From: a virus
Strand: one strand, 5' to 3'
Length of the DNA stretch: 25,080 nt
Virus record (IMG/VR): IMGVR_UViG_3300032516_000188
Span: 1 to 25,080 of that record
Both the position numbers and the translations under genes were made by a program. Below, one piece after another: positions 10,369 to 15,594 of this stretch (positions are counted from its first letter, which is position 1; every line of letters starts with the position of its first letter). Under the pieces are notes generated by a model. The model searched no databases. It had not been told where the DNA came from and saw only the letters and a list, made by a program, of their open reading frames with translations.

Positions 10369-10920
10369 TCACCTCGCCTTCAGGGTCGACGTGCCCGTCG
10401 CCGTGGGGAGTGTCCCGGCCTGCACCGATACGCCAGAGGCTCCCGGGCCAGTCGTGACGCCCGAGTGGGTATGAGTGGCGAGCCACGTTTTGATATTGTC
10501 GACATCGCCCTTGAGCGCCAGGGCAAGCGCTCCTGAGCCGTTGTCGATGAGCACCTCTCCACTCGCCCGGATGATGACCCGTGACTTCGAGTTGTGGATT
10601 ATCGTTTCGTCCTCGGCGAGCGAGGCCGACAGTCGAGAGTCACGAGTGGCCACCACGACGGGGTGTCCGGATGCTCCGCCGATGGAGATCACGATGGCCT
10701 CCGGCCGGCCTCCCGATGCGGGCCGCGACATGAAGCCGATGTTGTGGAACACCGGCACGTCGGGGATGACCTCGACGTTGCTCTCGCTGTCCTGATAGCC
10801 TCGGAGTTGCCAGAATGCCGAGGCATCGGTCAGCGTGACACTGAGCCGACGCGCGAGGCCTCTGAGCGCCGTCGCCGCGTTGCCCACCTTCTCCCTCAGA
10901 TAGCGACTGGTCGGCCTCAT
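10369..10920 (-). CDS. Baseplate spike/hub protein, Mu gp45-like
   Basis: 183 aa. ATG at 10920 overlaps the gpP stop (ATGA); the frame extends further upstream but only into gpP. An N-terminal helix (MRPTSRYLREKVGNAATALR) is followed by an OB-fold-like region with FHNIGFMSRPASGGRPEAIVI and a beta-helical segment (ETIIHNSKSRVIIRASGEVLI). The end, THTHSGVTTGPGASGV, has the H-x-H of membrane-piercing spike tips; such H-x-H motifs bind iron in P2/Mu spikes. The protein would form the trimeric needle under the tube. The ribosome site is weak, so translation probably depends on coupling to gpP. Confidence 0.88.
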   Translation of the reverse strand: MRPTSRYLREKVGNAATALRGLARRLSVTLTDASAFWQLRGYQDSESNVEVIPDVPVFHNIGFMSRPASGGRPEAIVISIGGASGHPVVVATRDSRLSASLAEDETIIHNSKSRVIIRASGEVLIDNGSGALALALKGDVDNIKTWLATHTHSGVTTGPGASGVSVQAGTLPTATGTSTLKAR

Positions 10921-12110
10921 AGTCTCAACGTCGCCCCCTTCTCGGCCAGCGTCAGTTGCGTAGTGGCCTGTCCTCGAGACCTCGTGAACGAGACCGCTGT
11001 TATGTAGTAGTAGCCCACCGCCCCGATCTCCTCGTCCTCGTAGCTGCACATCGTATCTGGCGCGTAGACTACCCATCTCCCCGGGAGGTACTCCTGCGAG
11101 TGTCCTGGCGCGGTGATCGATAGGGTCTTGCCCGCGCTGTCTCGAAGCGCCATCTCCCGCCGAGCCTTCGACAGAGCGTGCTTGTCATCGCGCACATCGT
11201 CGTCGGCAATGATGAGATCCTTCGCGCGCACGAAGTCGAGGCCTTCGCCTGCGGCCCCCGGGCCGTTTTTGACGCTGCCCCGTGCAGCAATATGGCGAGC
11301 GTCCGCAGAGCGGCCGCGGCTCATTCCTACCACGGTGATCCGCGAGAAACGCTCGGCGACACCATCACCCTCCTCGACGTCGAGCACGTTGCCCTCATTC
11401 GCGCGAGCACTCTGCGGCCGCGGTAGGAGGAATCGATACTGTCTCTCCTGGTTGTAGTTGGGCAGACCGACGACGAAACTCCTCCCGTCGGCCGTACTCC
11501 ACCCCAGGAGTTCGGCCTCCTCCAAGAAGTGACTCAGAACCGCCCAGCGAGATTGACCCGGCGAGACACTCCGCTCTGGTTTCGGACTCTGGTCGATAGC
11601 CGGCTCACTCGACACGCGCGCGAGCGGAACCTTGGAACCTCCCCGCAACAATCTGCGGTTAGAGGCGTTCGTGAGGATGACCTCGGAGAACCAGGGGCTC
11701 ACCATCTTTTCGGCGAGCTGCTTGATCCCGAGCCCGCCGAAACTGACCAGCGGCGCGCTCTCATCGACGAGCCTCCCGCCCTTGTCGCGCCCGCTGATGG
11801 CGAGGGTGCGCCCGCTATCCCTCGATACGGTGCGCGTGCGCTTGTCGATGTACCCTGTCAGCACCGTGTTTCCGTCGAGGATTATCTGCACCTCGGCGTC
11901 CGGGCGGCAGAGGTCATAGGCCTCCTTCCCGGCATTCCCGACTGCGAGGGAGAAGCTATCGGCAGGTTGCAGTAGATCGATGGATATGGAGTAGTTCGTC
12001 CAGTTCTCGATCAGCGTTCCGCCGATGCGCACCGAAACGACGTGAGCGAGCTCGCCCACCGCCCGCTGGGAGGCTTGCGACAAGGCGTCGACGAGGCCCG
12101 AGCCGATCAT
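10917..12110 (-). CDS. Baseplate hub protein, Mu gpP (gp44) / P2 gpD-like
   Basis: 397 aa. ATG at 12110 overlaps the gpN stop (ATGA). Family pattern: VVSVRIGGTLIENWTNYSIS near the start, the DSFSLAVGN strand, EVQIILDGNTVLTGYID at about 72-88, then SRDSGRTLAISGRDKGGRLVDES. Later come a central LGWSTADGRSFVVG domain and a C-terminal AREMALRDSAGKTLSITAPG, YLPGRWVVYAP, TQLTLAEK. Together these are the four-domain hub fold that nucleates the baseplate beneath the tube, as in T4 gp27. Neighbours are in Mu order, gpN before it and gp45 after. Length matches Mu gpP (about 380 aa). Confidence 0.92.
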   Translation of the reverse strand: MIGSGLVDALSQASQRAVGELAHVVSVRIGGTLIENWTNYSISIDLLQPADSFSLAVGNAGKEAYDLCRPDAEVQIILDGNTVLTGYIDKRTRTVSRDSGRTLAISGRDKGGRLVDESAPLVSFGGLGIKQLAEKMVSPWFSEVILTNASNRRLLRGGSKVPLARVSSEPAIDQSPKPERSVSPGQSRWAVLSHFLEEAELLGWSTADGRSFVVGLPNYNQERQYRFLLPRPQSARANEGNVLDVEEGDGVAERFSRITVVGMSRGRSADARHIAARGSVKNGPGAAGEGLDFVRAKDLIIADDDVRDDKHALSKARREMALRDSAGKTLSITAPGHSQEYLPGRWVVYAPDTMCSYEDEEIGAVGYYYITAVSFTRSRGQATTQLTLAEKGATLRL

Positions 12111-13009
12111 CCCGAAGACCTCGCCGAGCCAGGCATCGGAAGGGTGAGCGCTCCGGGTTCGACGCGCGTCGGGTCGGGGATGTCATTGAGCGCCATGATG
12201 TCGGCCATGCGGTCCTCCCACTCCGAGGGCGCATAGGTCGATGCCCCGAGACAGCGCAGAGGTAGAGGCGCCGTCACGGTGACGGAGAAGAGCCTCGGCG
12301 TCGTGGCCAGGGCCGCGGAGGCCGCGTTGCGCATGTTCGCCTGGAGGTTTGCGAGCGCTGCCACCACGGGGTATCTGGAGATGTCCGTGGCCAATTCCCA
12401 CTCATCACTGAGGGCCTGTATCTGGTTGCTGGCCTCTGTGAGCTCGTTTTGAATGTCGCGCGCGGTCTTGCCCTCCTCCTCCCAGCCGGAGGCCACGACC
12501 ACCATGTCATCGCCGAGAGTGCCCGCCAAGCCGCACTCCTCGATGGCCGTGGCAAGCTCGAGCGCGCTGGCGGCGACGGCGTCGACGCCGGCCATGATAG
12601 GGGAGCCGGCCCCTGCGGCGAACACCGACGGTTGAGTGGTGTCCTCCTCGACGGTGAAATCGCAGGTTATCGTGTCTCTGGGCTCGGCGCCCACGGAATA
12701 GGAGAACTCGCTGATCCGCGCGCGCGAGACCTCGCCGAAGAGGGGGTGGACGAATGGGAGGGGCTCGCCGCGGTCCTTCTGCACCACGAACGCGGCGAAG
12801 CGCTCGAGATGGTCGGCCCCCATGAAGATCGCCTTTACCCGCTCGATGCGTGGAGCTCGCCCCATGTCCTCGATGTCGGCGCCGTCACGGTTTGGGTACT
12901 CGTGCCGCACGAGGGCGCGCCCCGCTGTGCCATCGACGCCCACGACGTCGAGGCGCACTCCTCCGTAGGAGCACTCATAGAGGATCGATTCCCAGAAGTC
13001 TTCGCTCAT
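12107..13009 (-). CDS. Mu gpN-like tail protein with DNA-circularisation N-terminal domain
   Basis: 300 aa. ATG at 13009 overlaps the tape-measure stop (ATGA). The first ~110 residues match DNA_circ_N, the domain that starts Mu gpN: FWESILYECSYGGVRLDVVG, VRHEYPNRDGADIEDMG, then ADHLERFAAFVV and LPFVHPLFGEVSRARISEF. The remainder is helical and acidic. It links the tape measure to the hub in the tail-tip complex. It is shorter than Mu gpN (about 490 aa), which suggests a reduced C-terminal part. Despite the domain name, no DNA function is expected here. Confidence 0.88.
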   Translation of the reverse strand: MSEDFWESILYECSYGGVRLDVVGVDGTAGRALVRHEYPNRDGADIEDMGRAPRIERVKAIFMGADHLERFAAFVVQKDRGEPLPFVHPLFGEVSRARISEFSYSVGAEPRDTITCDFTVEEDTTQPSVFAAGAGSPIMAGVDAVAASALELATAIEECGLAGTLGDDMVVVASGWEEEGKTARDIQNELTEASNQIQALSDEWELATDISRYPVVAALANLQANMRNAASAALATTPRLFSVTVTAPLPLRCLGASTYAPSEWEDRMADIMALNDIPDPTRVEPGALTLPMPGSARSSG

Positions 13010-14898
13010 AGGACCGGCCCCCTGCCATATGCCGGGTCATTTTCGAGGCTGGCCGACATCGAAAAACCGTCCTTCGTCTGCAACTCCCCGATGACACGGA
13101 TGGTGAACTCTTTGACCGACGCGGCGGCGGCCTGCCCTTGGTCGATTCCACGCCGTTTCTTCTCGACGTAGTCCATGTAAGACATGTCCCCAGCGTCCGG
13201 ATAGAACTTAGCCGCGCTGCCCTCGGCCCATGGTCCTCGGCGTTGAGGAGCGTCTTTCATCAGTTGGACGTCGACGTCCTCCCAGGGCTTCTCGGCCCCG
13301 TAGAAAGACTGCTCGGCGACCCTGGGAGCGAATGCACCGTACTTCATGAAGTCGGAGTGCTTCATTTTTGCCCCGGCGTTGCCGATGATGTAATCGCCGA
13401 GGCCGGTCGCCTCTTGGATATAGTCGCCCAACTGATAGCCGGCATAGGCCGCGCCTGCGAGCCCCAGGACACTCCCCGCCACTCCGGCCACTCGCCCCAG
13501 CATGGACTTCTTACCCGCCGCCGCCGCGCCTCCACCAACGGCCCCGGCGACACCGCCCGCGCCGCCGGCGACACCGCCCCCGACCACCATCACGGGCAGA
13601 GGATTCACCATGCTCCACCCTCCGCCGAGGCCGCCAGCAACAGCCCCAGCAACCCCGCCCCCTCCACCTCCACCTCCGAAAACGGCTTGGCCGAGGCCGG
13701 GGAGATACTTCAGAGCGAGGAAGGAACCGAGGACGGCTTCCTTGTTGTCGATGAGAAAGCGCACGACGTCGACGAGCTTCTCGGCTGCGGCGACCAGTTG
13801 CAGCATGCGCTCGGGGGAGAAGACGTCATCCCACTGTTTCTTGAGCGCGATCCTGGCGACCTCGAGCCGCCCCGCCGCGCTCTCCATGTATTTTTTATAG
13901 TCGGTGCGGATGACCGTGCCCGCATTATTCGCGTCGTCGATGAGCTTCTCGACCTGAGCCAGTCGAGAATTTTGCCCCTGGTCCATAAGGGCGTTGAAAG
14001 CCATACCAGCCTCTTTGTCGGGCAAAAGTTGCTGAACCAGTTCTGGATTTTTCCCTACCTTGTCGATGAGCTCGAAAGTGATGTCCTTCATGCTTCGAAG
14101 GCGCTTAACGCCGTTTTTGTCCTTCTCGAAAATATCGACCTTGCCCAGCTTCTTGATTTTCGCGGAATGGCGGATGAGGCCAGTCATGAGCGCCTGCATG
14201 CCCGTGGCGGCCTGCGAGCTCGTGGCGAAACCCGAGCGCATCGTCTGGAGCATGGCGCCCATCTCGGCGAGGCCTTTGGTCCCCGTCACGCCGAACCGCG
14301 CGAACGAGGGCGTCAACTCCATCGCCAGGCTCGCTATCTCCTTGAGCTCGACTGCGCCGGCCTTTCCCTGCTGGAGAAGAATCCCGAAGGCCTTCTCCAT
14401 ATCAACCGCGGCAACCCCAAAGTTTGTCGAAAGTGCCGCGGAGGTCTGGGCGAGCTCTGACATGCTCGTCCCTGACGCCGCGGCGGTCATCGCCCACATT
14501 GATAGCTGGGTTTGCGCGTCATCGATTCGACCCGTCAGAGTCACCCACTGCTCTGCACCGCCGAGTAGTTCCGAGGGGTCGACGCCTTTCGCTTGCGCGA
14601 TTGCCCAGATTTTTTGCTTCAACGCCTCCATGTACTCGGCAGATTTTTCTCCCTGGATGCCGAGATAGGTGAGGCGCTTCGAGAATTCGAGCGCTTCTTT
14701 GCCCGCAGAAACCATCATCGCAGCGCCACCGAACCCGGCGAGACCTGCAACGCCCGAGAACGCCCCCGAGAGCCCTCTCCCGATATCGTTCTTGATGCCT
14801 GTCGCCCAGCTCTTGAGCTCCGACCTGGAACTTCTGAGCGCGCGACTGAGCCCCCGAGTGTCGCCGGTGATTCTGGCTACAGCTTCGCGGTCAGCCAC
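13006..14898 (-). CDS. Tail tape measure protein
   Basis: 630 aa. The start is GTG at 14898, with GGAGGG five bases upstream, overlapping the end of the chaperone frameshift product. The protein has a TIGR01760-type core: a helical N-terminus (ALRSSRSELKSWATGIKNDI), FSKRLTYLGIQGEKSAEYMEAL, TQLSMWAMTAAASGTSMSEL, then AGMAFNALMDQGQNS. A hydrophobic Gly/Ala-rich stretch at about 403-495 includes eight consecutive glycines and could be the membrane-active part released into the host inner membrane. At about 1.5 angstroms per residue this predicts a tail near 95 nm; that is inference. It is shorter than Mu's tape measure. Confidence 0.93.
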   Translation of the reverse strand: MADREAVARITGDTRGLSRALRSSRSELKSWATGIKNDIGRGLSGAFSGVAGLAGFGGAAMMVSAGKEALEFSKRLTYLGIQGEKSAEYMEALKQKIWAIAQAKGVDPSELLGGAEQWVTLTGRIDDAQTQLSMWAMTAAASGTSMSELAQTSAALSTNFGVAAVDMEKAFGILLQQGKAGAVELKEIASLAMELTPSFARFGVTGTKGLAEMGAMLQTMRSGFATSSQAATGMQALMTGLIRHSAKIKKLGKVDIFEKDKNGVKRLRSMKDITFELIDKVGKNPELVQQLLPDKEAGMAFNALMDQGQNSRLAQVEKLIDDANNAGTVIRTDYKKYMESAAGRLEVARIALKKQWDDVFSPERMLQLVAAAEKLVDVVRFLIDNKEAVLGSFLALKYLPGLGQAVFGGGGGGGGVAGAVAGGLGGGWSMVNPLPVMVVGGGVAGGAGGVAGAVGGGAAAAGKKSMLGRVAGVAGSVLGLAGAAYAGYQLGDYIQEATGLGDYIIGNAGAKMKHSDFMKYGAFAPRVAEQSFYGAEKPWEDVDVQLMKDAPQRRGPWAEGSAAKFYPDAGDMSYMDYVEKKRRGIDQGQAAAASVKEFTIRVIGELQTKDGFSMSASLENDPAYGRGPVL

Positions 14899-15594
14899 GT
14901 TTCCCTCCGAATGGACTACGCCGAGTTGGGCCAGTGTAGCGGTACACGACTCCGCCGCGTGGAGCCCTCGCCCTCGGTTTCATCGTTTCCGTGGCCGTCT
15001 GCTCCAACATGACGAACTCCCAAATCTGCCAGTCGCTCAGCTCTCGGGCTGGGGTGCCGTAGTAAGCAAATAGGTCACGAGCCCGAAAGATCCGAAGCCC
15101 AACAAGCTCGCTCTGTCCTTTTTTTTTACGGCGACCTTGATGGCCTCGTACTCACCTTGAGACAGCTCGGCAAAGTCGGGGCTGTTCTGCGCGCGCAGAT
15201 CACCGTACCAGCGGGTCACGATACCCCGCTGGTCGGCGGTCGTATTCGCGCGGAGATCGTCTTCATCGAGCGCAAAAGGTTTCGCCGGATCGTCAGCGTC
15301 CCTGCATGCCCGGAAGAGAAGCTGGACCATCAACTCCTCCTCATACGGCACGACGCACTGAAGATTTTCCGGCGGTAGGCCTATCTGTTTGAACCGCGAA
15401 TAGGCCGCCGCGTAACACTCCTGTTGTTCGTCGCCGCGTAGCACGCGCAGCTTGAAGGGCGCATCGAAGCCCGGCCATTTCTTGTCGACCAGCTTCTCGC
15501 TCGCTCGCGCGTACACGGCCAGCCGTGAGAGGCCGAGGGCTTCCTGATCGTCGGTCACGGGCTGACCGCCCAGAGCGTTGTTGCGGACGGCCAT
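14891..15594 (-). CDS. Tail assembly chaperone frameshift product (GT-type, -1)
   Basis: Frame 0 gives the 185-aa chaperone. At the A9 run (15127-15119) a -1 slip on AAA-AAG continues into an otherwise unassigned open frame of 75 codons, ending TGA at 14893-14891 inside the first codons of the tape measure. The predicted fusion is 234 aa. The new C-terminus contains GLRIFRARDLFAYYG and ELSDWQIWEFVMLEQT, the helical, tryptophan-rich pattern typical of 'T' domains (DLF...DW..WE.VM.EQ). This explains the ~140-base gap before the tape-measure gene. In lambda gpG/GT and Mu gp41 such pairs load the tape measure and tube. The ratio of products depends on slippage. Confidence 0.75.
15037..15594 (-). 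CDS. Tail assembly chaperone (gpG-like, frame-0 product)
   Basis: 185 aa. ATG at 15594, with GGAGAA upstream and three bases after the tube stop. It has a helical N-terminal chaperone fold, YARASEKLVDKKWPGFDA and QQECYAAAYSRFKQIGLPP, then an acidic loop (FALDEDDLRANTT) and ELSQGEYEAIKVAVKKKD around the slippery run. Downstream of the slip, the in-frame tail (29 residues) is short and less structured, as expected when termination is the default. The location between tube and tape measure is the conserved position of tail chaperones in myophages and siphophages. Confidence 0.8.
   Translation of the reverse strand: MAVRNNALGGQPVTDDQEALGLSRLAVYARASEKLVDKKWPGFDAPFKLRVLRGDEQQECYAAAYSRFKQIGLPPENLQCVVPYEEELMVQLLFRACRDADDPAKPFALDEDDLRANTTADQRGIVTRWYGDLRAQNSPDFAELSQGEYEAIKVAVKKKDRASLLGFGSFGLVTYLLTTAPQPES
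15119..15127 (-). other. Slippery run for programmed -1 ribosomal frameshift
   Basis: Nine consecutive A on the coding strand (T9 on the plus strand), read in frame 0 as GTA-AAA-AAA-AAG. A slip of -1 keeps Lys-tRNA pairing and opens the 75-codon frame to 14891. A GC-rich stretch follows immediately and could help stall the ribosome, though I did not identify a defined pseudoknot. The site lies close to the 3' end of the chaperone gene, as in other phages. Confidence 0.75.

Follow-up and report, generated by a model that had tools for sequence, protein, structure and literature searches.

The production of a tail assembly chaperone in two forms by frameshifting, G and the longer GT, is widely conserved in long-tailed phages, and the low level of the shift sets the G:GT ratio (PMC5009743). 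Frameshifts of this kind are well established (Xu, Hendrix and Duda 2004, as cited in PMC2628397, PMC4378225 and PMC5009743). The locus described here raises the question of whether an apparently non-coding gap in front of a tape measure gene holds the second half of such a chaperone. The DNA analyzed is a single virus record of 25,080 nt (here called the window), which carries a Mu-like head and contractile-tail gene block on its minus strand (Table 1). G is placed between the genes for the tail tube and the tape measure protein, the position expected of a G/GT pair. Our analysis indicates that the product of this putative tail assembly chaperone gene is very probably made in two forms, G and GT, by a -1 shift.

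Table 1. Tail genes and frameshift features in the window (positions on the 25,080-nt stretch).
Feature	Position	Strand	Basis
Tail sheath (Mu gpL type), 478 aa	16000..17436	-	PHROG 165 tail sheath, E 6.1e-86
Tail tube, 129 aa	15598..15987	-	PHROG 185 tail tube, E 2.3e-12
G, putative tail assembly chaperone, 0-frame product, 185 aa	15037..15594	-	ORF; homology; fold comparison
Slippery site, A9 and the G after it, with A_AAA_AAG in phase at 15124-15118	15118..15127	-	Sequence
Dual-coding stretch, slip to G stop (frame 0, tail of G; frame -1, start of T)	15037..15117	-	Comparison with L209
T domain, -1 frame, 75 codons plus TGA	14891..15117	-	T profiles built without the window; codon score; GC3 peak
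GGAGGG, likely tape measure ribosome-binding site, within T codons	14903..14908	-	Sequence reading; inference
Tape measure protein, 630 aa, GTG start (14898-14896)	13006..14898	-	PhageMin_Tail, E 6.2e-14; PHROG 794, E 3e-22
DNA circularisation/gpN-like protein	12107..13009	-	DNA_circ_N, E 7.5e-20
gpP-like baseplate hub	10917..12110	-	GpP-like_1st, E 1.7e-18

The G ORF ends in a TGA stop codon, and close to its 3′ end the 0-frame codons read GCC GTA AAA AAA AAG GAC, which places the heptamer A_AAA_AAG in phase for a -1 shift. The A9 run (T at 15119-15127 on the plus strand) is the window's sole run of nine; of 200 dinucleotide-shuffled versions of the complete window, 4 contained an A9 or T9 at any position. 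In the -1 frame, no stop occurs between 15151 and the TGA at 14893-14891, and this TGA overlaps the beginning of the tape measure gene, whose start codon is GTG. Translation past the slip would add 75 codons, so that GT would comprise 234 aa, namely the first 159 residues of G and a T extension of 75 aa. The initial annotation, which had described an A9 run followed by a 75-codon open frame up to the tape measure start, was exact in its coordinates, and the frame fills the supposed non-coding gap with an exact fit from tube to tape measure.

The length of the open frame alone is weak evidence for coding; 7.3% of 5000 shuffles of this stretch were open in any given frame. That the -1 frame is open beyond chance is instead concluded because the homology tests described below were positive. 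Furthermore, downstream of the G stop the codon score was -0.04 for the -1 frame compared to -0.29 and -0.31 for the other two, and the GC content of the -1 frame peaked at codon position 3 (0.69), the pattern of the window's genes.

The GT alignment had matches in 27 stretches of IMG/VR, three of which are relatives (L209, L210, and L211). The closest relative found, L209, is an independent record with the same neighbors as in the window (sheath, E 1.8e-129; tube, 1.2e-33; tape measure, 2.6e-62), and its G and T match those of the window with E values of 2.7e-41 and, by phmmer, 1.1e-16. Its slip site, GCA GTA AAA AAA AAG GAC, has the A9 run in the identical phase, the distance from slip to G stop is 82 nt in both records, and its -1 frame is uninterrupted up to a T stop that overlaps the tape measure start as GTGA. 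In L210 and L211 T also lies in the -1 frame, behind A8 and A9, respectively.

Across the dual-coding stretch, the window and L209 share 16/26 residues when read in frame 0 and 14/25 when read in frame -1; neither score was reached in 500 shuffles. The +1 frame of the same stretch (11/25) likewise exceeded its shuffles (0/500), and part of the agreement in the overlap therefore reflects DNA similarity as such. Beyond the G stop codon, the alignment scores were 55.5 for the -1 frame, 33.5 for frame 0, and 7.5 for the +1 frame, and the -1 frame is the only one free of stops in both records. Frame 0 also beat its shuffles in this part. Since the counts of identical residues do not favor the -1 frame (15/46, against 18/46 in frame 0 and 16/41 in the +1 frame), the case for the -1 frame after the G stop consists of its alignment score and its lack of stops only.

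More distant homologs were found in bacterial genomes. The tail sheath was searched in 282 genomes of one phylum, that of the genome with L096 (contig title, "Myxococcota bacterium"), and 8 of them matched. In L186 and L187, two of the eight regions fetched, the ORF just before the tape measure gene resembles the window's T (phmmer E 5.7e-7 and 7.2e-8), a match by which these two were selected, and it is placed in the -1 frame relative to a G of comparable length. The window's T also matched L210 (8.2e-8), L211 (3.1e-5), and L207 (2.1e-4). Searches with the G alignment returned 3 of the 282-genome draw (none of them new to the alignment), 9 of 183 genomes from the order to which genome G084 belongs (seven of them new, and eight more regions were fetched), and 1 of 11 genomes. 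Outside that phylum, the alignment searches covered four genomes, in which the GT alignment had no match (0/4), nor had the sheath in four others (0/4). Altogether, T was located in the -1 frame of G in L186, L187, L205, L207, L209, L210, and L211.

Profiles built from these T sequences without the window recovered the window's -1 ORF (14894-15151, minus strand) as the sole significant match among 623 six-frame ORFs. The E value was 7.5e-10 with two sequences (next best 1.8), 1.5e-8 with four (next 0.54), and 8.6e-6 with eight (next 0.22). With L209 included (six sequences) it reached 3.6e-17 (next 0.77), and 3.8e-13 when L209 was left out (five). T profiles built without the loci in question also matched L205 (1.7e-5), L203 (6.3e-5), and L206 (1.5e-7), and by coordinates T is in the -1 frame in L203 and L206. 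Matches to L202 (0.003), L204 (0.013), and L201 (0.062) were weak, with a background in other loci of up to 0.03 (L184); the profile had no match in L189 and nothing near G in L208. A G-like ORF is present in each of L189, L201, L204, and L208. The window's G was matched by G profiles of 4, 10, and 9 sequences with E values of 3.1e-7, 2.2e-13, and 1.8e-25, the last one, built without the window, with this protein as its sole match; a profile of two G sequences missed it. The W/E/F pattern in which the initial annotation had seen a T domain belongs to a family motif, roughly [YF][YFW]GxPAxEL[TS][DN][WG]Q, and its suggestion that a missing tail gene had been recovered agrees with the homology of this frame to T ORFs that lie in the -1 frame of G elsewhere.

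The slip sites of the homologous pairs are not uniform. A9 is present in L209 and L211, A8 in L210, and A7 in L187, while the sites are apparently G_GGG_GAA in L186 and C_CCT_TTA in L205 and L207, these three being our assignment from the overlap of the two frames.

Neither G nor the T extension matched a family in Pfam or PHROGs above chance (0 families). Direct searches of viral contigs with G, tube, gpN, tape measure, and portal, and of annotated phages with the G proteins of the window and of L187, gave no relatives, and genome contigs searched with the sheath gave no match. The window's G and T are thus homologous to pairs with no annotation only, including, by profile, the T of two Mu-like prophages. 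Sequence similarity of such ORFs across phages is low (PMC5009743), and because they share little sequence, we do not require a Pfam or PHROGs match for membership among G/GT pairs. The proposed chaperone fusion by a -1 shift is therefore supported by its anatomy, by the fact that the slip site and both frames are conserved, and by homology to -1 G/T pairs of phages and prophages.

We also analyzed a set of Mu-like phages and prophages, in which the gene order and a -1 ORF behind A7 to A9 are shared with the window. From 62 loci with a tube match, a G ORF was picked in 55 (six had no tape measure gene in reach and one had no G). An overlapping -1 ORF that extends past G was present in 53 of the 55 loci, duplicates included, and was combined with an A run of at least 7 in 48 (30 A8, 15 A7, 3 A9). 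By comparison, +1 ORFs occurred in 26 of the 55 loci, 9 of these with such an A run. The seven loci without the combination of -1 ORF and A run were L005, L006, L009, L066, L115, L116, and L130; in L066 another ORF had been mistaken for G, and the typical A8-linked -1 pair is present. Removal of duplicates left 43 loci, and A_AAA_AAG was in phase in 40 of them. As a set, the G and T proteins of these loci are not alignable with those of the window: in a profile comparison with the 43 G/T sets, the T score was reached by 60 of 200 shuffles and the G score by 12 of 200. The Mu-like loci therefore support the mechanism by position and not by descent.

The T profile matched T in 2 of the 43 Mu-like loci, L139 (9.4e-11) and L125 (1.9e-7). 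Both are from Aquitalea genomes, and the match ties the window's T family to Mu-like prophages outside the searched phylum.

The predicted fold of G was compared with solved structures. An AlphaFold2 model of G alone was too poor for use (mean pLDDT 49.1); with the G proteins of L209, L210, and L211 added, the mean pLDDT was 72.9. For this model, the tail assembly chaperone of HK97 (2OB9) ranked first among solved structures, with a Foldseek E value of 0.35 (probability 0.80) and, by VIA-align, a Z score of 6.4, an rmsd of 6.0, 14% identity, and 103 of the 107 residues of 2OB9 aligned; an unrelated structure came next with Z 4.2. With a Z score below 8 and a Foldseek E value of 0.35, the match to 2OB9 may reflect only a common fold arrangement. 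In BFVD, 11 of the best 50 among 378 matches are tail assembly chaperones by name, and none of the 378 had an E value of 0.001 or below. The fold comparison is thus suggestive only and would favor a chaperone role of G without proving it. The designation as a putative chaperone also draws on position, anatomy, and homology to the unannotated G/T pairs.

From these data we infer that the shift occurs, that it is ribosomal, and that its rate is low enough for G to prevail. Most ribosomes would stay in frame and produce G, and a minority would slip back by one base on A_AAA_AAG and continue in the -1 frame up to the tape measure start, yielding GT. As in lambda, G and GT would both bind the tape measure protein, T would recruit tail tube subunits, and neither form would be part of the finished virion. 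A_AAA_AAG is among the most shift-prone sequences in E. coli (PMC5009743), and measured shifts of 6% and 7% are given for two chaperone genes of an HK97-like cluster (PMC3711429). RNA structure downstream of the slip site was not unusual in the window (z of -0.37, 0.01, and -0.21) or in L209 (0.77), the mean z of 42 Mu-like loci was -0.03, and only L187 was mildly low (-1.72). An AAGG upstream of the slip site, considered as a Shine-Dalgarno-like stimulator, is not kept in L209. As there is no consistent downstream structure and the AAGG is not kept, the site may act by sequence alone.

A run of nine A's is long enough for RNA polymerase to slip as well, so that GT could come wholly or largely from transcripts with an extra A. 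Motifs for transcriptional slippage are runs of more than seven A's, and dnaX of Thermus uses nine (PMC3711429); the A9 of L209 and L211 and the A8 of L210 would also suffice. However, the sites in the homologous pairs L187 (A7) and, apparently, L186 (G_GGG_GAA) and L205 and L207 (C_CCT_TTA) are too short to slip transcriptionally, and the window's run ends in just the phase that yields A_AAA_AAG. We therefore favor a ribosomal slip and regard polymerase slippage as the main source of GT as unlikely.

Two further explanations do away with the shift itself, and both appear highly improbable. Since A9 is prone to errors and the window is one virus record of 25,080 bases, a homopolymer error in sequencing or assembly could have split a gene that is truly one fused frame, or T could be the dead remnant of a broken gene. 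The independent record L209, however, shows an identical A9, the two frames as in the window, a conserved 0-frame tail, and an equal distance to the stop, and both frames are kept, neither of them resembling debris. Alternatively, T could be a small gene with a start of its own that is never fused to G, for which a precedent might be seen in Klebsiella phage ST405-OXA48phi1.1, where a 117-nt ORF in the -1 frame downstream of G is annotated separately. This scarcely fits the conserved -1 frame of L209, which reaches back over G as far as the slip site, or the in-phase position of the slippery site. A -1 shift on A_AAA_AAG thus remains the preferred reading.

The slip site of lambda is G-rich, whereas the window uses A_AAA_AAG on A9, and the window's pair differs from gpG/gpGT of lambda also in having no match to a Pfam chaperone family. 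In its overall arrangement it resembles the lambda pair, which likewise lies before the tape measure gene, slips near the 3′ end of G, and has T in the -1 frame (PMC5009743). With dnaX of E. coli the window shares the identical heptamer in the identical phase. The E. coli gene carries a hairpin as well as a Shine-Dalgarno-like stimulator (PMC3711429), neither of which is supported in the window. For phage Mu itself, a -2 shift has been reported (PMC5009743, PMC4378225).

Judged by the sequence searches, the novelty of this locus is the protein family, a G/T pair that Pfam and PHROGs do not recognize, and the titles and abstract openings returned by literature searches contained no description of it. 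Tentatively, and with somewhat less confidence than we would grant an even guess, the homologs may represent an uncatalogued G/T family with its own T motif, distributed among phages of one bacterial phylum and Mu-like prophages elsewhere. In such a family, the slip site would have been swapped repeatedly (A9, A8, A7, G_GGG_GAA, and C_CCT_TTA), with the -1 direction fixed and no consistent stimulatory RNA structure, and members with A9 or A8 might mix ribosomal and transcriptional slippage. The finding leaves the knowledge of tail assembly unchanged; it recovers a tail protein missed by ordinary annotation, and the resulting T-domain profile detects the other half of the chaperone in phages without annotation. 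The homologous pairs with differing slip sites form a natural series on replacement of the site with its use kept.

Several annotated phages showed related arrangements. In Klebsiella phage ST405-OXA48phi1.1 (L172, 5265-5785), the record lists the end of T as a hypothetical ORF of its own, which lies in the -1 frame after CTT AAA AAA AAG, and it likely lacks the joined gene. In Rhizobium phage vB_RleM_PPF1 (L171, 3052-3258), a T7 lies near the end of the presumed G, and an unannotated -1 ORF extends to the tape measure start. The paper on Burkholderia phage KS10 gives no frameshift before the tape measure gene (PMC2628397). In the KS10 sequence (L212, 871-1104), the end of the chaperone gene overlaps with a +1 (equal to -2) ORF that finishes at the tape measure start, the relation reported for Mu; the slip site in KS10 was looked for among homopolymer runs only. 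A +1/-2 ORF that overlaps a Mup41-like gene and extends to the tape measure gene is also present in Alteromonadaceae phage B23 (L170, 3089-3268), whose tape measure protein is the best match to that of the window among annotated phages.
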